47,148 nucleotides of DNA from Fibrobacterota bacterium. GTDB taxonomy: Bacteria > Fibrobacterota > Fibrobacteria > UBA11236. Below the pieces are notes generated by a model that saw only the letters and a list, made by a program, of their open reading frames with translations, made no database searches and was not told the DNA's origin. The stretch is from assembly GCA_028287465.1 (NCBI GenBank), contig JAQBPO010000040.1, positions 1 through 47,148 on the forward strand, given 5' to 3'. The translations under genes and the position numbers were made by a program. This document shows positions 12,001 to 38,306 of this stretch, one piece after another (position 1 is the first letter of the stretch; the number at the start of each line of letters is the position of its first letter).

Positions 12001-15000
12001 GCCGAGGCATGGCCCAACTGCAAGATACCGGCGCTCACGGTAGTCAGGCCCGTATAGGTATTGGCTCCGGAGAGGAGCAGGGTTCCGGAACCGGCCTTGG
12101 TCACGGTGCCGCTGCCCGTGGCGATGATGCCGGAAACCGTGGTGTTACCCGTCCCCTGGAAGGTCATGTTGAAATTGGTCCCGGTCAGGCCCGTGGTCCA
12201 GGTCATCAGGATATCGGGGGTGCCCGGATCGGTAACGTCCAGGACGGAATGGCCCGCAATGGTGCCGCCCCCTCGCAGGGTGAATCCGGCGGTGCCGCTG
12301 GTGACATTGGCCCCTGCGGACACGTTGACCGTATACGCTCCCGCCGTGTTCAGGAAATGCACGCTATGGGTGACTCCGGCGCCGGCCGCGACCCTGTCCA
12401 CCACCACATTCACCCCGGTCCCGACCGCCTCCAGGGAGGCGTTTAAATCGAGGGCCGTATTCGAGACCACGCGGATCGTGGTCCCGGCCGAGGCGTATAC
12501 GAAATCCAAAGTACCGCTATTGCCGAAGGCGTTGGCGTTCCGGCCTTCCAAGGTGCCGCCCGTCAGAAAGATATCGTTGTCGAGTTGCGAATTGTCCACG
12601 CCCAGGATTAAGGTGCCGGAGCCGGACTTATAGACCGGTGCCGTGGTGATTGCCGATATCGCCCCGTTCAAGGTCAAGGTCTGGCTGGAGGCGACATCGA
12701 AGGTTCCCGTGACGCCGGAGTTCAGCAGGAAGGCCTTGGTCAAGGTGAAGGAGCCCGTTGCCGCCAGGGTACCGGTGCCCGTATAGGTCACCACATTGGT
12801 GCCCGAAGGGGATCCCAGATTGTTCGCCGCCCCCACGCTTACGGTTCCGCCCGCTATTTCCGTTCCGCCCGTAAAGGTGTTCGCCCCGGTCAGGGTCCAG
12901 GTCCCCGCATCCTCCTTGATGATCTTGCCCGTGCCGATACCGACTATGCTGGCGATGCTTCCGTTGGCCGCGCCGCCCAAGGTCAGGTTGAAGGCGCCGG
13001 AAATGGTTCCCGCATGGCTCAAGGTGATGTTTCCCGATCCCGCCTCGATGCTGGAGGCCGCGGCCAAGGTCACAAGGCCGGGGAAGGACGCGGCGGTGGT
13101 GCTCCCGTTCTTGACCGCGCCGCCCGCCGAGATGCCCGTGCCCGAAATGGTCAGGGGTTCGGCGGAAGCGTAGGCGATGCCGTTCAGGTCCAGGACCGCG
13201 CCGCTGGACACCACGGTATTCCCGCCCACCGCGCCCAGGGCCGTGGTGGAACCCAGGATGAGGGTACCCCCCGAGCTGACCGTAGTTACGCCGGAATAGA
13301 GGTTGGCGCCGGACAGGGTGAAGGCCCCAGTACCGGTCTTGGTCAGGGCCAAAGTCTGCTGGGTATTCTTGATGACCCCGGAGAAGGCGGTGGTTCCATT
13401 GTTCCCGCCGGTGGTCAGGGTGAAGGTGCCCGCGGTCGCGGCATTATTGTCCACGACGGCGCTGCTAGTGCCGGCCAGGGAACCGATGGTTTCGCTATGC
13501 CCGTACAGATCCAGGCCGCCGTCGGACAACGTCACGGCCACCCCGTCGGGGATGACATTGTTCGCGCCCAGGCGCACCACACCGGGGGTGATGGTCAGGG
13601 TGCCGGTAAAGGTGTTCGCCCCGGCGAGATATAGGGTGTTCTGGGACCCGCCATTGGCCTCATCGACGGTGATATTGCCCGAACCGCTGATGACGCCGTT
13701 GAGGGTCATGGAATTGCTCGTGGCGCCCCCCAGGCCGATTTCGCTCGCGGCCGTCACGCTGATGTTACCGTTCAGGACCACCGCACCGGCCCCGCCGTCA
13801 TGGCACAAGGTGGGGTAGCTGGAATTGCCGCTGCTGCCGTTCAGCACCCAATTGTTGGGGACCGTTATCGCGGAGGGAGCCCAGATCATGGCGAAGGCGC
13901 CGGCGTTCACCGTCACCGTGCCGGTGCCGAACCCGTTATTATGGTCCGTGCGGATATACCCGCCGTTGATGGTGGTGCCGCCGGTATAGGTATTGTTGCC
14001 CGAAACGACCTGGGCGCCGGTCCCGTTTTTGACCAAGGCCACCGTGCCCGAGGTGTTCTTGATGATGCCGGAGAAGGTGGTTCCGGTATTGTCCCCGCCC
14101 GTGGTCAGGGTATAGGTTCCCGTCCCCGCCAGGTTGTCCACCGTCCCCGAGCCCGCCAGGGAGCCGATGGTTTCGTTATGCGCTTCCATATCCAGGGTGC
14201 CGTTGATGGTCACGGCGCTCGCATTGGGCACCACTTCGCTCTGGTTCAGGTAGAGGGTCGTTCCCGAGACGATGGTGGTGGGTCCCGTCCAGGCGTCTCC
14301 GGTCCCGGTGAGGAACAACCGCCCGCTGGTACCCGTGGTGGCTACGCCCCCGTCGGTGGCGGCGTCGCCGCCCTGGGTGGAATGCGCAAGATTGTTGTTC
14401 AATCCCAGGTCGAACCCATTGGCGTCAAGGAGCGCGCCGCCATTGCGGATTTCGACGGCATTGAAATTGCCCAGATGCCACCCGCCCAAGGACGTTCTGA
14501 AGGTGCCTCCGTTGAAATAGAAGTAACCGGCGCCCGATCCCCTTTCCACAAGGCGCCCATTTATCATGGTGCCGCCGTTCAGGTTGATCGTGCCCGTTCC
14601 GCCGTATCCCGGGGTATAGAACTTGTCGTTGGGGAACGCTCCTCCCACCGCCACCGTCAGGGTCCCGCCAGCAATGGTCAAGATGCCCGTGCCATAAGGG
14701 CCGCCGCTCGGTCCCCCGCCCACGAAGGTCCGCCCGCCGCCATTGCCCACGTTCAGGGCGCCGCCCGTATTCAAGGTCAAGGTGCTCGTCCCCGTGGCCC
14801 CGTACCCCACGCCGAAGACGCCGGTGGCGTCGGTCGACAGGGTCACGGTTCCGTCGATGTCGACATTGCCGCCATTGTTCAGGATGAGGCTTTGCGTGCC
14901 GATCACGGAACCGGCGGCATTGATGTCCAAGGTGCCGGCGGTCACGGTCGTCGCCAGGGAATAGGTGCAGGCGCCCCCGAGGTTGAAGGTGAACGCGCCG

Positions 15001-17960: not shown

Positions 17961-18001
17961 TTGCACTTTCTGGATTTTTCGGTAAAAAACCCGTCAACGT
18001 T

Positions 18002-21179: not shown

Positions 21180-22322
21180 CTAGGTGAACAACCCCGAACG
21201 CGCCCGCTGCTCCAGAAATAGGTCCACCAGGGTCAGCGCCGCCATCGCTTCCACGATCACCACCGCGCGAGGCAATACGCAGGGATCATGCCGGCCCTTG
21301 GCCGCAAGGGTCCGTTCCTTGCCTTGCTTGTCGACGGTCTTCTGGGGCATTGAGATGGTGGCCGTCGGCTTGAAGGCAATCCGGCACAGGATCGGCTCGC
21401 CATTGGTGATGCCGCCCTGGACGCCGCCGGAGCGGTTGGTCTCGGTGCCGATGGCGGCGAAACCCGAAGCCGCCGACTTCGATTTTCCGGCCTTGGTTCC
21501 GGTTTTCGTTCCGCTCTTGTTCACGAACGGATCGTTGTGCTCGCTGCCCCGCAGGCGCGTGCCCGCGAAGCCGCTGCCGATCTCGAAGCCCTTGGTGGCG
21601 GGAAGCGAAAGGAAGGCGCGCGCCAGTTCCGCCTCGGCGCGGTGGAAGACCGGTTCGCCCACGCCCTTGGGCGCGTTCTTGATCACGAGCTGGATCACGC
21701 CGCCCAGGGAGTCCTGGGCCTTACGGGCATCGTCAATGGCCTTGGCCATCTTTTCCGCCGCGACCGGATCCGCGCAACGCACCAGATTGGATTCGATGGT
21801 CTTGAAGGTCGCCTTCAGCGGATCGATATCGGCGTCGATGCTTCCCACCTGGGACACGTAGGCCAGGATCTCGGTGCCGCAGACTTCCTTGAGGATTTTC
21901 CGGGCGATGGCTCCTGCGGCCACGCGGCCGATGGTCTCACGCGCCGAGGCGCGGCCGCCGCCGCGATAGTCGCGGAAGCCGTATTTCAGATCGTAGGTGA
22001 AGTCCGCGTGCGAAGGGCGGTACAGCTCCACCATGTCCCCGTAATCGTGGGAACGCTGATCGGTATTGGGCACGGTCATGCCGATGGGGGTGCCGGTGGT
22101 CCGGCCTTCGAAGAGGCCGGAGAGGATTTCCACCGTATCCGCTTCCTTGCGGGGGGTGGTCAGCTTGCTCTGGCCCGGCTTGCGGCGATCGAGTTCGGCT
22201 TGGATATCCGCTTCCGTGAGCTTGAGTCCCGCGGGGCAGCCGTCCACCACCACGCCCACGGCCTTGCCGTGGCTTTCGCCGAAGGTGGAGATGCGGAACA
22301 GGTTGCCGTAGGTGCTGGACAT
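21180..22322 (-). CDS. aroC: Chorismate synthase
   Basis: A 380-aa enzyme that makes chorismate from 5-enolpyruvylshikimate 3-phosphate using reduced FMN, the last step of the shikimate pathway. Evidence includes the start [20 protein letters not shown], the signature [33 protein letters not shown], and the C-terminal [19 protein letters not shown]. Compared with usual sequences there is an extra Lys/Thr/Ser-rich loop of about 15 residues (around [19 protein letters not shown]) just before GGVQGGI. The ATG overlaps the stop of the MazG-like gene by one base (TGATG), so translation is probably coupled. Confidence 0.97.
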
Positions 22323-22654
22323 CAGTCGGCCTTCAGCTTGGGATTGTTCTTGTGGCGATCGGCGTCCCGCACGGTCTTCTTCTCCAGGTTCTTCTCGAGG
22401 GCTTCGGTCAGATCGATGCCGGTCTGGTTGGCCAGGCAGAGGAGCACGAACAGCACGTCCGCCATCTCGTCGGGCAGGTCCTTGGCCAGATCCGACTTCT
22501 TGAAGCTCTGGTCGCCGTAGGTGCGGGCCATGATGCGGGCCACCTCGCCCACCTCCTCCATGAGGATGGCGGTATTGGTGAGTTCGGAGAAATACCGGAC
22601 CCCGACGGTCTTGATCCAGTCATCGACCTTGGATTGGGCTTCTTTGAGCGTCAT
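22322..22654 (-). CDS. MazG-like nucleotide pyrophosphohydrolase, 110 aa
   Basis: A short all-alpha MazG-type domain. The metal-binding acidic residues are seen in [18 protein letters not shown] and in [20 protein letters not shown], the E(x2)E...E(x2)D pattern of the family. Known relatives hydrolyse (d)NTPs to monophosphate and pyrophosphate, often as house-cleaning enzymes. It is a single-domain form, far shorter than full MazG. Its stop overlaps the aroC start, suggesting one transcript. TAAGTT (complement of 22707-22712) upstream may be its promoter. The real substrate cannot be told from sequence. Confidence 0.88.
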
Positions 22655-22780: not shown

Positions 22781-22786
22781 TATCTT
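22781..22786 (+). promoter_or_regulatory. TAnnTT box (TATCTT) before the LtaS-like gene
   Basis: TATCTTAAGG ends 34 bases before the chosen ATG at 22821. Between them lies an eight-codon frame (22798-22824) whose stop overlaps that ATG. Confidence 0.35.
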
Positions 22787-22820
22787 AAGGACCCCTCATG
22801 CCCGCCGCGACGAACCCACC

Positions 22821-24809
22821 ATGAACGCCCTGTACCTGCGGGCCTTCGCCCTCTTCGCCGCCCTCCGGATCCTGTCGCTGTCCCTGCATTTCATGGGCGA
22901 CAACCCCTACGGCGAACCGGTGGTTTTGAACCCGGACCGCTTCCTCCCCAACGCCGCCTTCCACGAGGCGGGCCTCATCATGGCCTGGTGCCTGATCCTG
23001 GCCTCCCTGGACGCCTTCCTCGTCCGGTCCCCGACCGGCCGGTCAGGGACCGGTCGCGCGGGGACGATCGGCCCGCATGGATCCCGGGGCTCCGCGGTCC
23101 TTCGCGCGCTCTGCCTGCTGGGCGGCTGCCTCTATATCGGCTTCTGCCAGATCGACAACGAGGTGGTCCGGTGGATGGGCGAGCACATCAACGTGTCCTT
23201 CCTATGCACCTATTTCGGCTTCCGGGACTCCTTCATGTGGGGCCGGGTGATCAAGGCCGACTGGCTCCATTTCCTGATCGCGGCCCTGCTCATGGCCGCG
23301 CCCTGGTATCCCGCCTGGCGCCTGTGGCGGCGCCGGGATGCGGATCGCGCCCTCGGGACCGCCTGGGCCCCGGTGGCCCTGGTCCTTTCGGCGGTATTCA
23401 TCTCCTTCCCCTTCTGGTTCCACTATTCGGACAAGCGCTGGCGCCGCATCCGCCCCGCGCCCTGGGGTATCATCGCCGATACCTGGAAGGGATTCGCCGG
23501 CCAGGAGGAGCCCCGGAACCGGCTCCGCGCCTATTCCGACCTCATCGCCATGGTCAGGACCGGCAAGCCCTCCTCGACCGACCTGGCGGCCATCCCGGCC
23601 TATCCCCTCCTCGACTCCGACAACCTGGGTTCCCTAAGCCCCGAAGCGTTCAAAGCCCTCCCGCTGGATCAGCGCCCGAACATCGTGCTTCTCATCGTCG
23701 AGACCCTGCGCGGCTGGAAGACGGGCCTGGTGGACGATCCCTCCATGCCCTCGCAGACGCCGCACCTGGACAGCGTCCTGCTCTCGGAGGGCCTGTGCTT
23801 TCCCTGGACCCATTCCAACGGCTTCCCTTCGGTCGAAGGCGGCATCGGCATCCATCTTGGCCTATGGCCGCATTTCCGCCGCACCTTCATCAGCGATTAC
23901 ATCCACGTGCGGAGCCGGTCCATCCCGGAAGGCCTGCGCCTGTTGGGCTACCGGTCCGAGATCCTCTTCGGCTACGATCCCTCCTTCGACAATTTCACCC
24001 CCTGGCTGCGCAAATGGTACGATCGCTACGAGTACGATCCCTCGCGCAGGAACGACGGCCCGCTCATCGATCGGCTCATGTCCATCATCGACACCCTGCC
24101 CACCGATCGCCCCTTCATGACCGCCCTGTGGACCACCACCATGCACCCGCCCTTCGACGTGCCCGCGGACGCGGGGTATCCGCCCGCCAAGGACGCGGAC
24201 GAGGCCTACAACCAGGCCATCGGCTATACGGAGAAGCATATCCTGCGCCTCTTCAAGCACCTGAAGGAACGGCCGGACTTCAAGCGCACCCTGGTCATCC
24301 TGGTGGGCGACCACTCCGATTACACCGCATGGCAGATGCGCAACACCGAGGTGGTGGGCGAACTCAACCCCGGGCATACCTGGACCAACCTGGCCTTCTG
24401 GGGAGGCTGGCCGGGCCTGGGACCCCGCGGCCGCCGGGAAGAGACCGTGAGCCAGATCGACATCGCGCCCACCCTGTTCACCATGCTCAACGCGCGCTTC
24501 CCCAACCACTTCATCGGCCGCAGCCTGCTGCAGCCCTCGCAGCGGGACATCCTGTGCATGCGCTACGGGCACCTGGCCCTGATCTCGGAAGCCAGCCGCA
24601 CGGTTTTCCACATGGAGGCCGATTCCATCTGGCACTGGGACCTCGACAAGCACCGCAAGATCGACTATGCGCTCCTGGAAGGCAATACCGCCCAGGCCAC
24701 GCGCGCCGCGCCTCCGGGTTTCGATCCGGAACGCTACCGGGACATGGCGCGGGCGTATGGACGGGTCTTGGACAGGGATGCGCTGTTGCCGCCGGATCCG
24801 GGCCGATGA
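22821..24809 (+). CDS. LtaS-like membrane sulfatase-fold phosphotransferase
   Basis: A 662-aa protein with about five N-terminal membrane helices (residues 1-210), then an extracytoplasmic sulfatase-fold domain. The metal site is visible as E294 in NIVLLIVETLRG and D497-H498 in VGDHSDY. The likely nucleophile is S337 in SNGFPSVEGG, where LtaS has Thr. Known relatives move phosphoglycerol or phosphoethanolamine onto envelope glycans or lipids. I chose the internal ATG because the preceding 35 residues are not membrane-like and the promoter-like TATCTT lies between. The stop overlaps the next gene by ATGA, so the two are coupled. Donor and acceptor are unknown. Confidence 0.88.
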   Translation: MNALYLRAFALFAALRILSLSLHFMGDNPYGEPVVLNPDRFLPNAAFHEAGLIMAWCLILASLDAFLVRSPTGRSGTGRAGTIGPHGSRGSAVLRALCLLGGCLYIGFCQIDNEVVRWMGEHINVSFLCTYFGFRDSFMWGRVIKADWLHFLIAALLMAAPWYPAWRLWRRRDADRALGTAWAPVALVLSAVFISFPFWFHYSDKRWRRIRPAPWGIIADTWKGFAGQEEPRNRLRAYSDLIAMVRTGKPSSTDLAAIPAYPLLDSDNLGSLSPEAFKALPLDQRPNIVLLIVETLRGWKTGLVDDPSMPSQTPHLDSVLLSEGLCFPWTHSNGFPSVEGGIGIHLGLWPHFRRTFISDYIHVRSRSIPEGLRLLGYRSEILFGYDPSFDNFTPWLRKWYDRYEYDPSRRNDGPLIDRLMSIIDTLPTDRPFMTALWTTTMHPPFDVPADAGYPPAKDADEAYNQAIGYTEKHILRLFKHLKERPDFKRTLVILVGDHSDYTAWQMRNTEVVGELNPGHTWTNLAFWGGWPGLGPRGRREETVSQIDIAPTLFTMLNARFPNHFIGRSLLQPSQRDILCMRYGHLALISEASRTVFHMEADSIWHWDLDKHRKIDYALLEGNTAQATRAAPPGFDPERYRDMARAYGRVLDRDALLPPDPGR

Positions 24810-25936
24810 ACATCCTCATCATCACCCAGGACTTCCCGCCCGAACGCGGCGGCATCCAGACCTACGTGCTCGAGCTCGCGCGCGGCTTCCTGGCCAAGGG
24901 CCATGAGGTGCGCGTCATCTGCCCGGGCTCCCCCGCGGATCCCAATCCCCTTCCCGGCCTCGCGGACCTGGTGCGCCTGAAGATTCCCGGTTCGCTCCTG
25001 TTCATCCGCCTGTTCGCCTTCCTCCCCGGTTACCTGCGCCGCAATCCCTCGGTGACCCATATCCTCTACGCGCAATGGCAAGGCGCGGTGGCCGCGAGCT
25101 TCCTTCCCGGGCCCAAGCGCGCGGGCCCTGCCGGGCCCATCAGGTCCTACTGCCTCGTTCACGGCCGCGAGCTGCTCACCTCCGTGTTCGGGCCCCTGGG
25201 GCCGATGCTGATGCGGCGCGCCTTTTCGCGGCTGGACGCGGCCTTCCCCAACAGCAAGGAGGTGATGCGGCTTACGCGCGAGAAGGCGGCCCCCGCCTGC
25301 CCCTTGCATCTGGTCCATCCCGGCGTGGATCCGGATTTCTTCCGGCCCGCGGACGCGCGCTTCCTGCGCGAGCGTTACGGGCTCGGGGACGCGCCCGTCA
25401 TCGTCAGCATCACCCGCATGGTGGCGCGCAAGAACCTGCGCCGCCTGATCGAAAGCCTGCCCGGCGTCCGCGCCGCGGTGCCGGGAACCGTCCTCCTCCT
25501 CGGCGGGACGGGCCCGGAGCGCGATGCCCTGGTGCGACGGGCGGCGGAGCTGGGGCTGGGCGATTCCGTGCGTTTTACCGGGCGCATCGCCGACGGGGAG
25601 ATGGCCGCGCATTACAGCCTCGCCGACGTCTTCGCCTTGCCGAGCCTCTCTTCGGAAAAGGACATCGAAGGCTTCGGCATCGTCTACCTGGAAGCCGGCG
25701 CCTGCGAGGTCCCGGTGGTGGGGGGACGGGCGGGCGGCGTGCCGGACGCAGTCGCGGAAGGGGAAACCGGATTGCTGGTGGATCCCGAAAATACCGAAAA
25801 CCTCAAACAAGCCCTGGTCGACCTCCTCCGGGACCGGCCCAGGGCCCTTGCCATGGGCAAAAATGCGCGTTCCCGCATCCTCAGGGATTTTACCTGGAGC
25901 GCGGCGGCGGAAGGGTTACTGGGTCGGATCGCTTGA
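24806..25936 (+). CDS. Glycosyltransferase family 4
   Basis: A 376-aa GT-B enzyme. The N-terminal acceptor domain has ITQDFPPERGGIQTYVLEL, typical of GT4. The C-terminal donor domain has ITRMVARKNLRRLIESLP, LLGGTGPERDAL, and the EX7E motif in EGFGIVYLEAGA followed by GGRAGGVPDAVAEGETGLLV. Such enzymes build polysaccharide or lipopolysaccharide glycans from nucleotide sugars at the inner face of the membrane. It starts within the stop of the LtaS-like gene (ATGA) and is followed by the PAP2 gene after 25 bases, so the three probably share a transcript. The sugar is not predictable. Confidence 0.95.
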   Translation: MNILIITQDFPPERGGIQTYVLELARGFLAKGHEVRVICPGSPADPNPLPGLADLVRLKIPGSLLFIRLFAFLPGYLRRNPSVTHILYAQWQGAVAASFLPGPKRAGPAGPIRSYCLVHGRELLTSVFGPLGPMLMRRAFSRLDAAFPNSKEVMRLTREKAAPACPLHLVHPGVDPDFFRPADARFLRERYGLGDAPVIVSITRMVARKNLRRLIESLPGVRAAVPGTVLLLGGTGPERDALVRRAAELGLGDSVRFTGRIADGEMAAHYSLADVFALPSLSSEKDIEGFGIVYLEAGACEVPVVGGRAGGVPDAVAEGETGLLVDPENTENLKQALVDLLRDRPRALAMGKNARSRILRDFTWSAAAEGLLGRIA

Positions 25937-25937
25937 C

Positions 25938-25946
25938 TATCTTTTG
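25938..25946 (+). promoter_or_regulatory. TAnnTTTT box before the PAP2 gene
   Basis: TATCTTTTG begins two bases after the glycosyltransferase stop and ends 15 bases before the ATG at 25962. It is the closest match in the window to the Bacteroidetes TAnnTTTG element. Confidence 0.4.
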
Positions 25947-25961
25947 GGAACTGTGGATAAA

Positions 25962-26555
25962 ATGGACACTGCGGAAATCGATCGGACGGAGGAGCCTTCC
26001 TTGAGGAGCGGCATCTCGGCCCTGACCTCCAGGGTGACGGCCGTCGACGTGGGATTCTTCCGCATGCTCGCCGCCTGGTCCATGCCCAAGCCGGTCACCC
26101 TGTTGCTCATCCTGCTCGTGCGCATCGGGGACGGGTGGATGTGGGGGGCCATCGCCCTGTACCTCTGGTGGGCGCTGCCGTTCGCGGAATTGGAAATGAC
26201 CGTCCTGCACTGCATCCTTTCCATCGGCATCAGCCTGTGCTTCTACCTTCCCATCAAATTCATCATGAAGCGGCCGCGCCCGTACGACAGCGGTCTGGAC
26301 GTCACGCCCCTGGTCCCGCCCCTGGACAAGTACAGCTTCCCGTCCGGGCATACCATGAACAATCTGGCGGTGGCGCTGACCTTGGCCCTCCACCTGCCCC
26401 GGTTGATCGTACCTGCCATCTTGCTTCCCGTGGTCATGGGGATGCTGCGCATCCTCTTCGGCGTCCACTATCTGAGCGACATCGTCGGCGGAACCGTGCT
26501 CGGAACCGTGGCGTTCTTCATTTCCAAGGCCATTTTCCCCGCCATCGACCTCTGA
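25962..26555 (+). CDS. PAP2-family membrane phosphatase
   Basis: A 197-aa polytopic protein with the three PAP2 catalytic motifs: K99-x6-R106-P107 (KFIMKRPRP), PSGH at 127-130 with H130, and R163-x5-H169-x3-D173 (RILFGVHYLSD). Relatives dephosphorylate lipid phosphates such as undecaprenyl pyrophosphate or phosphatidic acid at the outer face of the inner membrane. In this glycan cluster, recycling of the polyprenyl carrier is an attractive but unproven role. A GTG three codons upstream (25953) is an alternative start. The small GCGGG/CCCGC hairpin at 26576-26589 could end the transcript. Confidence 0.92.
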   Translation: MDTAEIDRTEEPSLRSGISALTSRVTAVDVGFFRMLAAWSMPKPVTLLLILLVRIGDGWMWGAIALYLWWALPFAELEMTVLHCILSIGISLCFYLPIKFIMKRPRPYDSGLDVTPLVPPLDKYSFPSGHTMNNLAVALTLALHLPRLIVPAILLPVVMGMLRILFGVHYLSDIVGGTVLGTVAFFISKAIFPAIDL

Positions 26556-26575
26556 TCCCGGCATTCCCGATTTTC

Positions 26576-26589
26576 GCGGGCTTCCCCGC
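26576..26589 (+). terminator. Short GC hairpin after the PAP2 gene
   Basis: GCGGG (26576-26580) pairs with CCCGC (26585-26589) around CTTC and is followed by only three T. It is a weak candidate, and no better terminator is visible in the 140-base gap. Confidence 0.25.
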
Positions 26590-26666
26590 TTTCAGACGGG
26601 TCCCGGGCATGCTAGAATATCCCCGGTGGGGGGCATGCTTGGATGGAAATCCGACGGTCGAGGAAG

Positions 26667-26672
26667 TATCTT
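26667..26672 (+). promoter_or_regulatory. TAnnTT box (TATCTT) before the barrel-flippase gene
   Basis: GTATCTTAAC ends 23 bases before the ATG at 26696. It is the same nine-base string as before the HAD gene at 38443. Confidence 0.45.
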
Positions 26673-26695
26673 AACTCCGGTTCGCCTTACCGCGC

Positions 26696-29600
26696 ATGTC
26701 AAGCAAACGACCGCAGAAAGTAATGAGATTGCGCCTTCCGGCCCTGTTTCCCCTCATGCTCCTGATCGCCTTCGCGGCCGAGGCCGCACCCAAGTCGGAT
26801 TCGACCCGGGTGCGCGGCACCGCCCCGCGCGATTCCGTTCCCGCTCCCATTCCCCCCAGCGCCGCGAAAGCGGCCAAACCGGCCGATTCGACCGCGGCCA
26901 GGGATTCCGCCGAACGCGCTGTCCATAGGGATAAGATCCTCGCGGATTCGCTCAAGGCCGCCGACCTGATCCGCGCCCAGACCGATTCCATCGCCAAGGC
27001 CTCGGGCGAGCCCATCTTCCAGGATTCGGCGCAGGACAAGAAGCTCTACGAATACATCGCCTATCCTATGCTGCAGCTGGCCACCTTCCCGGTGGAATTG
27101 ATCCTGGTGCCCGCCGTGCAGCTGGCCATCTACCCCTCCAAGGCGCCCCTGCGCTACATGCTCAACGAGAACGTCATCGACCGCACCATCCAGCTGATCA
27201 GCTTCGGACAGAACGACAAGGTGATGATCTACCCCACCCTGAACCTGGCGCCGGGAACCGGTTCCTTCACCGGCCTCACCCTGAGGCATCTGGCCATCTT
27301 CGGGCGGAGCACGGAACGCCTGGTCGCCCAGGGGAACCTGTACGTCAACGGGGACTGGAAATTCCGCAGCTACCTTTCCGCCAACGACATCATGGGCACG
27401 GGCTTCAATTCCAAGCTTTCCATGTCCCTGGTCCGGGTGAAGAACACCTCCATGAACCAGCCCGGCACCCCTTCCTTCTGGTTCTACGCGGATACCTCCA
27501 ATATCTTCTCCGCCAACCTGGGGCACCGGGTCATCGAGAAGTTCGCCCTCAAGGGCACCTTCGTCTACCGGGACAACCATTTCGGCCAGGCGCCGCCCCA
27601 ACAGGACTCCCTGCACAGCGATTTCTTCCGCGACCCCGCAGGGCTGCTCGACGTGAAGTCCCGCGGCCTCAACGATTCCTGGCAGGATCGCATCCTGGCG
27701 GCGGGCATTTCCCGGGACACGCGCAACAACGAGAACATCCCCCTGGCGGGCAGCAATTTCAGCGCCACCTACCATTACCACCTCACCACCGCGCACCATG
27801 ATTTCCACGGCTGGGAAGCCTCCATGACCAACTACTTCAAGCTGGGCAAGGAAAAATACGAGGTGGCTTCCAAGGGGGACAAGGAGGCCGGAGGCATGAG
27901 CATGCGCAAGGTCCTGGAGAAGATGGACATCGACAACCTCAAGAAGGAACTGTTCAACCGCAAGGTCTTCGTCACCCACCTGTATACGGCCCAGGTCTAC
28001 GAGCTGCAGGGCAACCGCATGCCCGTCTACGGCCTGCAGACCTTGGGCAACGATACTCCGTTGCGGGGCTACGGCGGCAGCCGGTTCCGCGATTACACCG
28101 TGCTCTCCGCGGGCGGCGAATACCGCTTTCCCATCATGCGCCTGGTGGACGGGGTCATTTTCGACGAATACGGCGTCTTCGGCCGGTCCTGGGACAAGAT
28201 CGACTTCCTGGATAACCTCAAGAACTCCTGGGGATTCGGCATCCGCGTGCGCCGCCCGGACATCTACCTGTTCCGCCTGCAGCTGGGCTTCCACGGGGCC
28301 CAAGGCATCCAGCTGAACATGTCCGTCGACGAGCCTTACTCGCTTTCCCCCCGGACCCTGCCGGCCTCCCAAGAAACCATCCGCCGGGACATCAACCGCG
28401 GCGCCGCCATCTCCTTCGCCGGGAACTTCTTCAAGCTCGCGGAATTCCTCCTGACCCTGCTCGCCGCGCGCCTCTACGGCGTCTCCGTGTGGGGCTCGTA
28501 CATCTTCCTGAATACACTCTTCCTGCCCGTGCTCCGGCTTTCCTGCGCGGGCATGGACAAGGGCATCATCTGGTACGTGTCCAAGCACCGGGAATCCCGC
28601 CTGCCGGCCGGGTTCTTCGCCTGGGTGCGCAACCGCATGCTGATCATCTCCGCCGTGCTCCTCACCGGCTTCGGAGTCTACCAGGCCTTCTGGGGCCGCG
28701 CGTCCTCGGCGCCGGGCGGCCTGCTCGATCCCGTCGCCTTGATCCTCATGGCGGCCGCCATCCCCTTCATCATGCTCACCAACCTCAACCTGGGCGTCTC
28801 CATGGCGTTCAAGAAGATGGAGCACGAGGTGCTGGTGCGCGGCATCCTTTACCCCATCTTCTACCTGGGCCTGCCCTGCGCGTTCGCGTTCCTTTCGCGG
28901 GAGACACGCGTGCTGGCCTTCTTCTTCCTGCTCGGCAGCGCGGCCGGATGGCTGGCCAGCCTATGGCTCGCGGCCCCCCTCAAGAACTCCATGGACGATC
29001 AGCCGGTCACCGAGCATACCGACAAGGCGCTCGCGGTCCTGTGGCACTACTCCTGGCCCATGGGCCTGCGGGACGTATTGCTTTCCATCCAGCAGCGCAT
29101 CGACATCTGGTGCCTGGCCCTGTTCCTGCCGCCCAAGGCCATCGGCATCTACGGCCTGGCCCTCTCCATCGCCAACTCCATCAAGACCATCCGCCAGGCC
29201 TTCGACAATATCCTGCTGGCCGTGATCGCCCAGCTCAAGCGCGGCATCGACAGCGCCAATATCCGGGACGCCTACCTGCACGCGGGGCAGACCACCCTCG
29301 CCCTGCAGATCCCGATCTTCGCATTCCTGACGTTCTTCGCGGGCCCGCTCCTGAGCCTGTCCGGCCCCGAATACGCGCAAGGCGAGTCCGCCCTGCTCAT
29401 CTTCGCCTTCACCCTCATCATCATCGGGTACCTGGGGCTTTCGGGCGTGGTGGTTTTGGGCATGGGCAAGAGCCGTTGGGCCATGTTCAACGATCTCCTC
29501 TGCCTGGTCCTGGCGCTCTTGTTCACGCCCGTCCTGGTCCCGCGTTACGGCATCGCGGGAGCCGCCATGGGCACCTCCCTGTCCATCCTGCTCACCAACG

Positions 29601-29917
29601 TGGTCTGGTTCTTCGAGACCATCTACCTCATCCGCCTGGTCCCCCTGCGCGCCGCCGTCTTCGTCAATTTCATCCTGGGCGTGGGCCTCACCGCCCTGGC
29701 CTGGTCCGGCTGGAAACGGTTCGGCGCGGATACCCTGGTCTCGCGCGGGATCTGGTTCGGGCTCTACGCCGTCCTGTACGCCGCGGTCCTCTGGGCCCTG
29801 TTCGGGAAGGCCTGGCTGAAGCGCCGCCGCGCGGACGCGGCCGCCGCCCTCGAATCCGCGCCCGTACCCGCGACCGCTCCGGAATCCGGCCTCGGTTCCG
29901 GAATCAACCCCGGTTAG
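26696..29917 (+). CDS. Fusion of an Omp85/D15-like outer-membrane barrel with a Wzx/MOP-type polysaccharide flippase
   Basis: One 1,073-codon frame. Residues 1-30 are a signal peptide (ALFPLMLLIAFAAEA), followed by a low-complexity Ala/Ser/Lys/Asp region to about 105. Residues 125-548 read as a D15/Omp85-like barrel: long alternating strands, an RGY motif at 457-459 in TPLRGYGGSRFRDY (compare the VRGF/Y lid of Omp85), and a last-strand-like IQLNMSVDEPY. After a linker, residues 570-1045 form a polytopic protein of about 12-14 helices, starting AISFAGNFFKLAEFLLTLLA, resembling lipid-linked oligosaccharide flippases. The two parts normally act in different membranes. Either it is a real fusion, or an internal start (ATG 28319, residue 542) makes the flippase separately, or a stop codon was lost. 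An alternative N-terminal start is the Met at 26723. Confidence 0.85.
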   Translation: MSSKRPQKVMRLRLPALFPLMLLIAFAAEAAPKSDSTRVRGTAPRDSVPAPIPPSAAKAAKPADSTAARDSAERAVHRDKILADSLKAADLIRAQTDSIAKASGEPIFQDSAQDKKLYEYIAYPMLQLATFPVELILVPAVQLAIYPSKAPLRYMLNENVIDRTIQLISFGQNDKVMIYPTLNLAPGTGSFTGLTLRHLAIFGRSTERLVAQGNLYVNGDWKFRSYLSANDIMGTGFNSKLSMSLVRVKNTSMNQPGTPSFWFYADTSNIFSANLGHRVIEKFALKGTFVYRDNHFGQAPPQQDSLHSDFFRDPAGLLDVKSRGLNDSWQDRILAAGISRDTRNNENIPLAGSNFSATYHYHLTTAHHDFHGWEASMTNYFKLGKEKYEVASKGDKEAGGMSMRKVLEKMDIDNLKKELFNRKVFVTHLYTAQVYELQGNRMPVYGLQTLGNDTPLRGYGGSRFRDYTVLSAGGEYRFPIMRLVDGVIFDEYGVFGRSWDKIDFLDNLKNSWGFGIRVRRPDIYLFRLQLGFHGAQGIQLNMSVDEPYSLSPRTLPASQETIRRDINRGAAISFAGNFFKLAEFLLTLLAARLYGVSVWGSYIFLNTLFLPVLRLSCAGMDKGIIWYVSKHRESRLPAGFFAWVRNRMLIISAVLLTGFGVYQAFWGRASSAPGGLLDPVALILMAAAIPFIMLTNLNLGVSMAFKKMEHEVLVRGILYPIFYLGLPCAFAFLSRETRVLAFFFLLGSAAGWLASLWLAAPLKNSMDDQPVTEHTDKALAVLWHYSWPMGLRDVLLSIQQRIDIWCLALFLPPKAIGIYGLALSIANSIKTIRQAFDNILLAVIAQLKRGIDSANIRDAYLHAGQTTLALQIPIFAFLTFFAGPLLSLSGPEYAQGESALLIFAFTLIIIGYLGLSGVVVLGMGKSRWAMFNDLLCLVLALLFTPVLVPRYGIAGAAMGTSLSILLTNVVWFFETIYLIRLVPLRAAVFVNFILGVGLTALAWSGWKRFGADTLVSRGIWFGLYAVLYAAVLWALFGKAWLKRRRADAAAALESAPVPATAPESGLGSGINPG

Positions 29918-29933
29918 GATCCCGGGCTTTTGC

Positions 29934-29939
29934 TACCTT
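29934..29939 (+). promoter_or_regulatory. TAnnTT box (TACCTT) seven bases before a start codon
   Basis: TACCTT then CGTCCCT then ATG at 29947. There is no room for a ribosome-binding site between box and start if transcription begins where a -7/-10 element would place it. Confidence 0.45.
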
Positions 29940-29946
29940 CGTCCCT

Positions 29947-30792
29947 ATGCTAGGACGCGTACTCCATCATCTGAAGAACCTTCGCGACGTCGCCATCGAG
30001 GACTACCTGGTCCGCCACCTGCAGGAGAATCCCCGCTACCGGGATCCCCTGCGCCTCAACGGGGCCGAGTTCCAGACCTTCTCCCAGCACGGGGAGGACG
30101 GGATCATCGAGGAGATCTTCGCCCGCATCGGCACCACCAACAAGCAATTCGTCGAGTTCGGCTGCGGCAACGGCCTGGAGAACAACAGCGCCCTCCTGCT
30201 GGTGAACGGCTGGCAGGGCCTGTGGATGGACGGCGGCAAGGAAAACGCCGAGCTCATCAAGGCCAAGTACGCGGATCTCCTCAAGTCCGGACGGCTGAGG
30301 TTCCAGCGCTCCTTCATCAATGCCGAGAACATCGAAGCCCTGTTCAAGGAAGGCGGCGTGCCCGCCGAACCGGACTTCCTGTCGATCGATCTGGACGGCA
30401 ACGACTACTGGATCTGGAAGGCCATCAGGAACTACCGGCCGCGCGCGGTCTGCATGGAGTTCAACGGCATCTTCCGCCCGCCCACGCGCTGGGTGATGAA
30501 ATACAATCCCGACCATATCTGGAACGGATCGGTCTATTACAATTCGAGCCTCAAGTCCCTGGAACTGCTGGGCGCCGCCAAAGGCTACAAGCTGGTGGGC
30601 TGCGACTTCACGGGCGTGAACTCGTTCTTCGTGCGCGAGGACCTGGTGGCCGGCAAGTTCCTGGCCCCCTTCACCGCCGAGAACCACTACGAGAGGAATA
30701 AGGCCTTCCTCACCAAGGGGCACCGCCATACGCCGGACTTCGGCGCCTTCACCCTCGACGAGGACCTCGGGGAAAACACCGGCAAGGCCTGA
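29947..30792 (+). CDS. FkbM-like SAM-dependent methyltransferase-type protein, 281 aa
   Basis: The protein has an SAM-binding glycine motif, FVEFGCGNGLENNS, followed by WMDGGKENAELIK and a later FLSIDLDGNDYWIWKAI with the acidic residues expected at the fold's second and fourth strands. Similar proteins occur in surface-polysaccharide clusters, where some methylate sugars. Whether this one methylates a sugar is inference. It follows the barrel-flippase gene by 29 bases and converges with the GT4 gene at 30811. The ATG chosen is the first after the flippase stop. The same frame is open much further upstream, but that is a shadow of the flippase. Confidence 0.75.
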   Translation: MLGRVLHHLKNLRDVAIEDYLVRHLQENPRYRDPLRLNGAEFQTFSQHGEDGIIEEIFARIGTTNKQFVEFGCGNGLENNSALLLVNGWQGLWMDGGKENAELIKAKYADLLKSGRLRFQRSFINAENIEALFKEGGVPAEPDFLSIDLDGNDYWIWKAIRNYRPRAVCMEFNGIFRPPTRWVMKYNPDHIWNGSVYYNSSLKSLELLGAAKGYKLVGCDFTGVNSFFVREDLVAGKFLAPFTAENHYERNKAFLTKGHRHTPDFGAFTLDEDLGENTGKA

Positions 30793-30796
30793 ACCG

Positions 30797-30816
30797 GCGT
30801 AACCCACGGGTTACGC
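30797..30816. terminator. 9-bp inverted repeat between convergent genes
   Basis: GCGTAACCC (30797-30805) and GGGTTACGC (30808-30816) are exact reverse complements two bases apart. The repeat sits just after the methyltransferase stop and covers the GT4 stop codon. It lacks a T tract, so a two-way terminator or an mRNA-end stabiliser are both possible. Confidence 0.45.
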
Positions 30817-31980
30817 TTCCGGGGGCCCGATCCTTCCCGCGTCCCCGATGACCCGGGCGAAGGCCTCGAAGTAACGGCCGCAGGCCTTGTCCCAGGACGA
30901 GGCTTCCGCATGGGCCTTGGCGGCCTCCCCCAACCTGCGCAACAGATCCCTATCGTCCATCAACTGCAGGATCCGATCCGCGATGGCGCGCGGGTCCTCC
31001 GGATCCACCAGGAAACCGGTCTTGCCGTCGATCACGGCGTCCGGGACCCCGCCGCTGTTCCCGCCCAGGGAGGGCGTGCCGCAGGCCCCGGCCTCCAGGA
31101 AGACGATGCCGAAGCCCTCCACGTCCGGCGGGTTCACGGAGGACCGGCTCGGCAGCACGAACAGGTCCGCCCGCGCATAGCAGGCCCCCATGTGTTCGTC
31201 CGGCACCCGGCCCAGGAAGCGCACGTGCCTCTCCAGCCCTTTGTCCGCCACCCGCTTCTTCAGGCGCGGCAGGTCCGGTCCGGACCCGCCGATGCAATAC
31301 AGGAAGTCCTTGCGCCGCTCCGCCACCAGGGCCGCGGCCTCGATGGCCATGTCCACGCCCTTGCGCGGCACCAGGCGGGAGAGGGACAAGGCCACGAAGG
31401 CGCCGGCGGATTCCAGTCCGAACAGGGCGGCGCGATCCGGTTCCGCCGGGATGTCCGGGAACAGGCGCGTACCCAAGGTCAGGACCTGGCGCCGGTCGGC
31501 GGGAACCCCGAAGGCTGCGGCCAGGGAATCCGTGAATCGGCTGATGCTGATGACGCGCCGGGCCCGGCGCAGGACCCCGCCGCGCAAGGCGCGCCAGAGA
31601 GGGATGCCTCCCGGCAACACTTCCAGGCCCATGCACAGGATCAGGTAGGGGACGCCGGTCAAGGTCGAGGCGATCAGGCCGCCCAGACCCGTGGTCACCT
31701 GCATATGGACGATGAGGCTCGGCCGGTAGGTTAAGGCGAGCCAGGGAACGATCCAGGCGGCGCAGAACAGGGAGGCCCACCGTCCGGTGCCGGGAAAATG
31801 ATGGTAGGCGAGAAGTCCGGGCGGCGGGGTATCGCAGGCCGGTTGCCCTATATGGAGGAGGACGATGCGATCGCGCCGGGTAAGGCCATGCCGCACGAGT
31901 TCGGCGGCCAGGGTCTCGATGCCGCCCCGGGTCGGTGGGAAGTTCCGGGTTACCAATAGGATGGGGCGCGGGCTCGGCAT
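30811..31980 (-). CDS. Glycosyltransferase family 4
   Basis: A 389-aa GT-B enzyme. The N-terminus ILLVTRNFPPTRGGIETLAA closely parallels the other GT4 at 24806. The donor domain shows LSRLVPRKGVDMAIEAAALV, GGSGPDLPRLKKRV, and EGFGIVFLEAGACGTPSLGG carrying EX7E. A hydrophobic patch at about 85-120 suggests peripheral membrane association. Two GT4 enzymes with closely related motifs on either side of the island suggest a duplication with different sugar or linkage use. TTAGTTAGTTTT lies upstream. The donor sugar is unknown. Confidence 0.95.
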   Translation of the reverse strand: MPSPRPILLVTRNFPPTRGGIETLAAELVRHGLTRRDRIVLLHIGQPACDTPPPGLLAYHHFPGTGRWASLFCAAWIVPWLALTYRPSLIVHMQVTTGLGGLIASTLTGVPYLILCMGLEVLPGGIPLWRALRGGVLRRARRVISISRFTDSLAAAFGVPADRRQVLTLGTRLFPDIPAEPDRAALFGLESAGAFVALSLSRLVPRKGVDMAIEAAALVAERRKDFLYCIGGSGPDLPRLKKRVADKGLERHVRFLGRVPDEHMGACYARADLFVLPSRSSVNPPDVEGFGIVFLEAGACGTPSLGGNSGGVPDAVIDGKTGFLVDPEDPRAIADRILQLMDDRDLLRRLGEAAKAHAEASSWDKACGRYFEAFARVIGDAGRIGPPEA

Positions 31981-32130: not shown

Positions 32131-32895
32131 GTGCGTAAACTCCTCCTCTGCTTGGGAATTTTGGGTCTGGCCCCTTCGGCGACCCATGCGTTCGCGACCA
32201 TGCCCGACAATCCCATCGCCTTCGGCAACTGCACCGCCAAGGTCAAGGTCGATGCGGCCCGATTGCGATCCGGCCCCTCCCTCGAGAGCAAGGTCCTGGG
32301 AGTCCGCACCCAGGATGAGCCCCTCTATGTGACCAAGGTCTTCGGCAAGTGGGTCCAGGTGGTCATGACCGACGGGGACACCGCCTATATCGCCGCCTAC
32401 CTGCTCTCCTTCCCCGCCAACGAGATCCTGGAGCAATGGAAGCGCACCACCCCGGCCCAAAGCGTAGGCAAGAAGGCCAAGGTGAAATGGGCCAAGGTCA
32501 ATTTCCGCAAATACCCTTCCGCGCATTCGCCCCGCATGGGGCACTTCAGCCACAATGACGAAGTCGCGGTGCTGAACGATATGGGCAATGGCTGGAGCCT
32601 GGTGGAAAGCCGCAAGGCCGACGGCAGCGGCACCTGTTTCGGATTCATCGCCAACCGGGCCCTGGCGGCTCCGGATGTGCCGGATCCCCCTGAATGGGTC
32701 GCTCCCTTGGCCATGGTCCGGCTGAATCCCGGCGAAAAGATGGAAAAGGCTCCGGTCATCGAAACCCCGGCCCAGTACTGCCAGCGCACCGCCTGGACCC
32801 CGGAACTGTTCGTGATGGAGCTGAAGGCCAAGTCCCGCCTGCATCCCCAGGACCTGATGAACGGATCGTCCGAACAGCTCGTCGCCATCCAGTAG
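32131..32895 (+). CDS. Periplasmic protein with two bacterial SH3 domains
   Basis: A 254-aa protein starting at GTG, supported by GGAG six bases upstream. Residues 1-20 (RKLLLCLGILGLAPSATHA) are a signal peptide. Two SH3b-like domains follow: about 36-92 (VKVDAARLRSGPSLESKVLG ... WVQV ... AYIAAYLL) and about 118-180 (AKVNFRKYPSAHSPRMG ... WSLV ... GFIANRAL). SH3b domains commonly bind peptidoglycan or peptides. There are four Cys after the signal. The C-terminal 70 residues are unassigned. It converges with the barrel gene at 32960; the 64-base gap shows no clear terminator. Confidence 0.85.
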   Translation: MRKLLLCLGILGLAPSATHAFATMPDNPIAFGNCTAKVKVDAARLRSGPSLESKVLGVRTQDEPLYVTKVFGKWVQVVMTDGDTAYIAAYLLSFPANEILEQWKRTTPAQSVGKKAKVKWAKVNFRKYPSAHSPRMGHFSHNDEVAVLNDMGNGWSLVESRKADGSGTCFGFIANRALAAPDVPDPPEWVAPLAMVRLNPGEKMEKAPVIETPAQYCQRTAWTPELFVMELKAKSRLHPQDLMNGSSEQLVAIQ

Positions 32896-37235: not shown

Positions 37236-38306
37236 TCAGCGCCGGGATGCACCGGCCTCGGGGATCCAGGAAAATACCGCGGTTCCCTTGCGCATCCGGC
37301 CGCTCGCATCCACGGCGTCCGCCCCCAGGGCTTCTTCCGTCGCTCCGGCCCGGATTCCGCGGGTTCGTCCCGGCAGGGCGATCGCCGTCCCGTAAAGTCG
37401 GACCTTCGCCACCGCGGGCTTTTCCGTGCGGTTGGTCCGCCAGATGCCCCAGTTGGCCCCCACTGGTCCCTCCGCGCCCTTCCAGGCCTCGTCGAAGGAG
37501 GTGAAGAGCATGAAGGACATGCCGTTGGCGGCCCCCACCTTGATGAGGTCCTCGGTGAAGCGCGCTTGGGCGGCCTCGCTCGGGATGGCCGGGGAACGCG
37601 ATTGTCCGGCGCTGGGGAAACCGGTCTCGCCGACGATGACGCGCTTCCCCGGGTACTTGGCCTTCACCAGGTTCCATCCCTTGAGCACGTGGGCGGCCCC
37701 GTTCTCGGCGGACTGGTTCTCCCAATAGGGATGCACGTGGCAGAGCACGTAATCGACCACCGGGGCCAGGTCGGCGGAATTGTCGCCGATGCGCTGGTAG
37801 ATGTCGGCGGTGGTGACGGGAATGCCCGTGCCCGCGTTCTTGACCATCTTGATGTACTCGATGAGGCGCGCCTTGGTCACGTCCTGGCGGAGCAGCACCT
37901 CGTTGCCGACGATCAATCCCTTGATGGCGGCGGCGCTCGGGCCCTTGGCCAAGGCGATGAGGGCGTTGACCTGGGCCTGGTTCGCGTTTTCGTCCTTGCC
38001 GATCCAGGCGCCCATATGGACTTCGAGCCCGGCCTCCAGGGCCAGCTTGGGGATCTGGGCGTGGATGCCGTCCGAGGCGTAGGTGCGGATGCCCTTCACC
38101 AGGGGAGCGAGGATCTTGAAGTCCTCGCGGATCTGGGCCTCGGTGGGCTCGGCGCCGCCGGGTTGCTGCCCATCGCGGTACGGGGAATAGCAGATATATT
38201 CCAGCGCCTTGGCGGAAAGGGACGGGACCAGGCAAACGGCTGCCAGCGCCGCGATCGCGGCCGCACGGAAAAACGGACTTTTCAAAACGGAAACCCCCTT
38301 GCCCAC
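37236..38306 (-). CDS. Glycoside hydrolase family 17-like beta-1,3-glucanase
   Basis: A 356-aa secreted (beta/alpha)8 enzyme. The signal peptide is residues 1-33 (LKSPFFRAAAIAALAAVCLV). The probable acid/base E136 lies in LIVGNEVLLRQD and the nucleophile E227 in VIVGETGFPSAG, in the positions and contexts of GH17; CHVHPYWE and MSFMLFTSFDEAWKG also fit. Known GH17 enzymes cut or transfer beta-1,3-glucan. Here it may degrade external glucan or remodel the cell's own osmoregulated glucan. It starts at GTG. TACCTT (complement of 38315-38320) ends eight bases before the GTG. It is followed by fmt after 18 bases. Confidence 0.9.
   Translation of the reverse strand: MGKGVSVLKSPFFRAAAIAALAAVCLVPSLSAKALEYICYSPYRDGQQPGGAEPTEAQIREDFKILAPLVKGIRTYASDGIHAQIPKLALEAGLEVHMGAWIGKDENANQAQVNALIALAKGPSAAAIKGLIVGNEVLLRQDVTKARLIEYIKMVKNAGTGIPVTTADIYQRIGDNSADLAPVVDYVLCHVHPYWENQSAENGAAHVLKGWNLVKAKYPGKRVIVGETGFPSAGQSRSPAIPSEAAQARFTEDLIKVGAANGMSFMLFTSFDEAWKGAEGPVGANWGIWRTNRTEKPAVAKVRLYGTAIALPGRTRGIRAGATEEALGADAVDASGRMRKGTAVFSWIPEAGASRR

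Follow-up and report, generated by a model that had tools for sequence, protein, structure and literature searches.

In Gram-positive bacteria, the lipoteichoic acid pathway comprises a glycolipid glycosyltransferase, the flippase LtaA, which is of the major facilitator superfamily (MFS) type, and the synthase LtaS. Passages of an earlier study give E255, T300, D475, and H476 as the LtaS metal site and name W354 and R356 as glycerophosphate-contact residues (PMC7576196). Beyond the rumen, the envelopes of Fibrobacterota have hardly been studied chemically; for Fibrobacter succinogenes S85, the title of a 2001 study calls the strain 'lipopolysaccharide-lacking' (cited in PMC9311074), and passages of a 2019 proteomic paper describe lipopolysaccharide (LPS) with O-antigen (PMC6851124). 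Here we describe a six-gene island in a window of 47,148 bases, which is contig C72 of the 5.8-Mb, 98% complete assembly of an uncultured Fibrobacteria genome (G000). The island encodes an LtaS-like enzyme, two family 4 glycosyltransferases (GT4a and GT4b), a PAP2-family phosphatase, an FkbM-like protein, and an Omp85-type barrel joined in one open frame to a Wzx/MatE-type flippase. The genome is that of a soil bacterium related to rumen Fibrobacter, and its small, partly swappable gene set probably makes a lipid-linked sugar, turns this over to the other side of the inner membrane, and attaches a phosphate-bearing group.

A stable core with exchanged accessory genes

Comparison with five congeners (G001–G005) showed that the island is a polymorphic envelope-glycan locus with a stable core. 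GT4a, the PAP2 gene, the barrel, and a flippase follow each other in this order at a fixed mazG-aroC site in all five congeners, with orthologous island proteins ~60–90% identical to those of the window, and this conservation of gene order excludes chance. Around the core, genes are exchanged at the same site. The LtaS-like gene was found in two of the five congeners (G002 and G005, 75–77% identity), and the FkbM-like gene and GT4b in G005 only, where the FkbM-like orthologue is 86% identical and a close relative of GT4b (66%) lies on the same side of the island. The flippase itself differs in type, since G001, G002, and G004 carry at the site a different flippase (~28% identical), which overlaps another GT4 gene in G002 and G004; in G001, G002, and G003 a Methyltransf_23 gene comes next, on the other strand. 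In phylogenetic trees, the barrels of the six genomes cluster, and the G000/G005 flippases are separated from the G001–G004 type by more than two changes per site, on long branches flagged by the tree program.

The sister genus carries the same families in a rearranged order. That flippase, GT4, PAP2, and barrel genes are kept together in both genera suggests a pathway of their own. The synteny that a preliminary description of the locus, made from its sequence, had proposed to check was thus found for the core and not for the LtaS-like, FkbM-like, and GT4b genes, and the small compact pathway envisaged there, plausible in outline, does not hold as a single pathway because several of its members are exchangeable accessories.

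The LtaS-like enzyme and the predicted pathway

The LtaS-like protein combines N-terminal membrane helices with a sulfatase/alkaline-phosphatase fold (PF00884, AlphaFold model, and Foldseek), and the best structural matches of the model were VP1736 (3lxq), PbgA/YejM, LtaP, and LtaS; by its modelled fold it is a member of the LtaS/OpgB/PbgA branch. The LtaS metal site has counterparts in E294, S337 (Ser for Thr), D497, and H498, of which E294 and S337 were placed via the A2 motif and an alignment with VP1736 rather than by direct alignment with LtaS; H442 is also kept, and position 337 is Ser or Thr in 16/16 aligned rows. A further LtaS-like paralogue is encoded on contig C73 of the same genome, and such a match was present in every congener and family member searched. 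The protein reached 33.4 bits against the NCBIfam LtaS equivalog model (cut-off 970 bits); because of this score and because the W354/R356 pair is not kept, we refer to it as LtaS-like and not as LtaS.

Of 167 phylum genomes, 45 carried a member of the LtaS subfamily (E at most 1e-60). Among the matches listed, 30 genomes held both this subfamily and an island-family flippase, and in 23 of them the two lay within 11 kb of each other, a count weakened by the fact that the phylum genomes are related and not independent samples; the rough chance value for one such pair in a 3-Mb genome is below 1%. Outside the genus, the closest homologues of the LtaS-like protein (G055 and G069; 42–43%) are encoded by genes that directly adjoin a same-strand flippase of PF13440 or related type and a PF04464 gene, which encodes a CDP-glycerol glycerophosphotransferase domain. 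All three families, LtaS-like, flippase, and PF04464, occur together in G116, and PF04464-type genes adjoin an island-type flippase in G010 and G013. In gut Fibrobacter (loci L174, L175, L178, and L179), genes for LicD, an aminotransferase, and a nucleotidyltransferase form a cluster with LtaS-family, flippase, and MMPL genes, and at L174, where Pfam was run, the cluster adjoins LptC-/LptA-like and ABC genes. Because the LtaS-flippase link recurs, together with the PF04464 neighbours and the gut Fibrobacter cluster, the comparison favours a predicted product that is a phospho-substituted, perhaps glycerophospho-substituted, glycan or glycolipid. The phospho-substituted glycolipid of the preliminary description is therefore plausible and partly supported: its phospho-substitution is backed by the phylum-wide link and the PF04464 neighbours, which carry it beyond what the sequence alone gave, but a glycolipid acceptor is not distinguishable from a polysaccharide. 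As a separate observation, loci L184, L185, and L188 hold LtaS-like, flippase, and PF04464 glycerophosphotransferase genes together, a teichoic-like set in a diderm phylum.

Taken as a whole, we interpret the island as a polymorphic locus for making, flipping, and phospho-substituting a lipid-linked glycan, and assign this explanation a rough probability of 0.5. Gene content, gene order, swapping, and the fold classes of the LtaS-like protein and the barrel are shown by the comparisons and models; we infer the enzymatic steps, donor, acceptor, and barrel role as follows. GT4a, assisted by GT4b or a different GT4, would assemble a short glycan on a lipid at the cytoplasmic face, and the Wzx/MatE-type flippase would turn it to the periplasmic face, while the PAP2 phosphatase may recycle a polyprenyl or similar carrier or trim a lipid phosphate. 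Where present, the LtaS-like enzyme would transfer a phospho-group in the periplasm, most likely phosphoglycerol from phosphatidylglycerol, and the Omp85-type barrel may assist the product, or its transfer, at the outer membrane. The LtaS-like gene, flippase type, FkbM-like gene, and GT4b are exchanged between species at the same site.

Besides the relatedness of the genomes, several observations speak against this explanation. The contact residues of LtaS are not kept: F383, D390, and F392 stand at the aligned positions of H347, a further glycerophosphate contact, W354, and R356, respectively, and the predicted phosphoglycerol specificity is therefore not readable from the sequence. The LtaS-like gene is missing from three of the five congeners with an intact core. 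In the remaining seven of the 30 genomes, LtaS and flippase genes lay on different contigs only (six) or far apart on one contig (one), and a further 15 of the 45 LtaS genomes, outside the 30, had no flippase among the matches listed. PF04464 was found in 0/10 genomes of the window's own family, and the island holds no initiating sugar-phosphate transferase.

A possible but doubtful alternative is an ordinary side cluster of O-antigen or exopolysaccharide synthesis, whose genes would only modify or shorten a polysaccharide that the main clusters, on other contigs, produce, with the LtaS-like protein as a modifier of the phosphoethanolamine or OpgB type. No polymerase, ligase, Wza, or Wzz was found at the locus among the window open reading frames (ORFs) scanned with Pfam, which for polymerase and Wza agrees with the preliminary description; this absence is local and means little, since Wzy/ligase-like and Wza-like genes sit elsewhere in the genome, with two Wzy_C matches over the cut-off on contig C13 and four Poly_export matches on contigs C13 and C32. 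These distant genes fit a side cluster, as do the patchy occurrence of the LtaS-like gene and the fact that its closest solved structure is that of an uncharacterised Vibrio protein. The joint retention of flippase, GT4, PAP2, and barrel across two genera, however, argues for a separate pathway.

A more specific form of the predicted glycan pathway, which we regard as unlikely on present evidence, is a diderm teichoic-acid-like route in Fibrobacterota. A Wzx-flipped lipid-linked glycan would receive phosphoglycerol in the periplasm from the LtaS-type enzyme (and, in relatives, in the cytoplasm from a TagB/F-like enzyme) and would reach the outer membrane assisted by an MMPL exporter together with an Omp85 barrel that lacks POTRA domains. 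If true, such a route would be an alternative or addition to LPS. The recurrent set of flippase, LtaS-type enzyme, and glycerophosphotransferase, with barrel and MMPL exporter, provides concrete genes for asking which surface lipid these diderms carry.

Barrel, flippase, and their shared frame

The barrel protein belongs to the Omp85 superfamily (PF01103, 44.4 bits with a cut-off of 24). Its model shows 16 strands at residues 176–543, with a predicted local distance difference test score (pLDDT) mostly of 80–97, and TamA/BamA were closest in Foldseek; a Pfam scan returned no POTRA domain, and the N-terminus is helical in the model. The barrel is nearly universal in the class, with matches to the query in 120 of the 121 genomes. 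In 57/62 Fibrobacteraceae-type loci (L083, L104–L166) an MMPL/RND gene (PF03176) forms a divergent pair with it; two of the other loci had no room for such a gene and three lacked it. This arrangement suggests a lipid-export pair. In most genomes of the window's family the barrel is accompanied by PAP2 and flippase genes, and in G010, from another family, by flippase and GT4 genes. A role in lipid or glycolipid delivery would be a reasonable inference from these neighbours. According to passages of PMC4104836, Omp85 proteins without N-terminal domains might serve membrane-protein biogenesis, a rival reading for the barrel. It is also conceivable, if rather improbable, that the barrel has nothing to do with the glycan genes among which it lies, with an MMPL/RND lipid exporter as its true partner; the divergent pairing and an MMPL homologue on another contig of the window genome agree with this, but chance would not keep the barrel with PAP2 and flippase, or flippase and GT4, in separate families.

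The flippase part resembles Wzx/MATE-type proteins weakly, with 23.8 bits for MatE, just under the cut-off of 24.9, and 26.5 of 300 bits for WZX_like; topology score and model predict ~14 helices. In G005 its orthologue is a separate protein of 498 amino acids (78% identical), which passes PF13440 with 36.7 bits (cut-off 23).

In the window, barrel and flippase share one open frame of 1073 codons, a state peculiar to this genome among 71 named relatives and 121 genomes. The barrel stop lies at query position 543–550 in 71/71 named relatives (548–549 in 68); the window has TCG (28340) at this place, and the frame continues into the flippase. In G005, the barrel ends with TAG and the flippase ATG follows 17 nt downstream in another frame; the window has CTG (28358) in place of this ATG, and one extra base aligns both frames. 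Near the junction there is just one other ATG in frame, at 28319 within the last barrel strand. A home-made score placed the flippase N-terminus in the cytoplasm rather than the periplasm (266 vs 246), the linker is ~20 residues long, and the model has pLDDT <50 at the junction. One polypeptide is hard to credit, because a cytoplasmic N-terminus is preferred for the flippase, the barrel half has to lie in the periplasm, and the linker is this short. Internal initiation, cleavage, or assembly errors may underlie the frame, and a single working fused protein is less likely than two products made separately or an error in the sequence; most likely, the flippase would be made by internal initiation (ATG 28319 or CTG 28358) or the frame would reflect a base error.

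A sequencing or assembly error in this metagenome-assembled genome, with the two genes really separate, is a serious candidate at somewhat less than even odds. It agrees with the uniqueness of the single ORF and the topology conflict between its halves, but stop and start are both altered, so that one wrong base does not explain everything: restoring TAG alone leaves the flippase without ATG, GTG, or TTG near its start, where only CTG 28358 is found. A chimeric contig was rejected, as order and spacing at the junction match those of G005. A true two-membrane fusion, with the outer-membrane barrel tethered to the inner-membrane flippase, is very improbable given the opposed topologies, short linker, and poorly modelled junction, even though the stop is lost, the start is lost, and the frames match, leaving 1073 codons open.

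Two further candidate fusions were rejected: L162, where the match reached query residue 582 and a stop follows TPY, and G001, where barrel and flippase share a frame (L076, 8270–8580) with a single TAA between them, so that one change would fuse them. A PDB search by sequence with the fused protein gave no match, and the listings returned by literature searches held no direct paper on the Fibrobacterota envelope or on barrel-flippase fusions. The frame is a clean case of outer- and inner-membrane genes losing the stop between them, and raises the question of how the bacterium copes.

Island genes and comparison with known systems

All six island ORFs were confirmed by ORF translation and Pfam and NCBIfam scans (Table 1), in agreement with the preliminary description, as was the partial ATGA overlap (4 nt, LtaS-like/GT4a). 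The PAP2 gene follows 25 nt on, the barrel frame after 140 nt, and the FkbM-like ORF after 29 nt. The second glycosyltransferase is adjacent and of the GT4 family, as described, but lies on the opposite, convergent strand and is therefore not in the same operon. The closest solved relative of GT4a is PimB' (3oka, E 7e-38), and the PAP2 protein gave weak matches to undecaprenyl-diphosphatase models and to LpxE and PgpB-type structures. For the FkbM-like protein, previously termed methyltransferase-like, that assignment was not borne out, as it had no match in Pfam, NCBIfam, or PDB (phmmer for PDB); its FVEFGCGN stretch is presumably Rossmann-like. Promoter and terminator scans gave chance-level results only, and tRNA and Rfam searches gave no matches. 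Other long ORFs across the island, on the minus strand or in alternative frames, were rejected as GC-rich shadow frames.

Table 1 Features of the island and its borders in the window
Feature	Position	Strand	Basis
aroC (chorismate synthase), left border	21180..22322	-	PF01264; 5/5 congeners
MazG-like gene, left border	22322..22654	-	PF03819; adjoins island in 5/5 congeners
LtaS-like phosphotransferase: N-terminal membrane helices, periplasmic alkaline-phosphatase/sulfatase-fold domain	22821..24809	+	PF00884, 67 bits
GT4a glycosyltransferase (core)	24806..25936	+	PF00534/PF13439; 5/5 congeners
PAP2-family membrane phosphatase (core)	25962..26555	+	PF01569; 5/5 congeners
Single open frame: Omp85 barrel, then Wzx/MatE-type flippase	26696..29917	+	PF01103 and MatE-type
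Barrel part: signal-peptide-like start, helical N-terminal part, 16-strand Omp85/TamA-like barrel	26696..28339	+	PF01103, model, Foldseek
Barrel-flippase junction: TCG (28340), CTG (28358)	28340..28360	+	comparison with relatives
Wzx/MatE-type flippase part, type A, probably 14 helices	28358..29917	+	PF01554, WZX_like
FkbM-like protein of unknown family	29947..30792	+	G005 orthologue
GT4b glycosyltransferase, convergent	30811..31980	-	PF00534
SH3-domain protein, right border	32131..32895	+	PF08239; adjoins island in 4/5 congeners

Elsewhere in the window, an open frame spanning 5,988 codons or more runs off the contig end on the minus strand (3–17966) and carries PA14, DUF2341, Laminin_G_3, and PATR repeats, as in a giant surface protein or adhesin. 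A glycoside hydrolase family 17-like gene lies near the island (37236–38306, minus strand).

Compared with the Gram-positive lipoteichoic acid pathway, the island likewise combines a glycosyltransferase, a flippase, and an LtaS-fold enzyme, in which metal-site residues E294, D497, and H498 and the Ser/Thr nucleophile position are kept. In contrast, its host is a diderm, its flippase is of the Wzx/MatE and not the LtaA type, equivalents of H347, W354, and R356 are lacking, a PAP2 protein and an outer-membrane barrel are present, and the LtaS-like gene is optional. With the OpgB, PbgA-YejM, and VP1736 branch, the LtaS-like protein shares fold and membrane anchor, VP1736 (3lxq) and PbgA being its best structural matches, but identity is 16–18%, and none of the branch's solved members is known to play such a part in a glycan locus. 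Wzx-type O-antigen and exopolysaccharide loci resemble the island in flippase, GT4 genes, and variable cassettes at a fixed site, whereas the island site has no polymerase, ligase, Wzz, or Wza and its core includes PAP2 and the Omp85 barrel. Finally, the barrel is akin to the Omp85 'noNterm' group, as passages of its description present it (PMC4104836), in having a 16-strand TamA/BamA-like barrel with no POTRA match, but differs in its ~100-residue helical N-terminal part and in adjoining flippase or MMPL genes.

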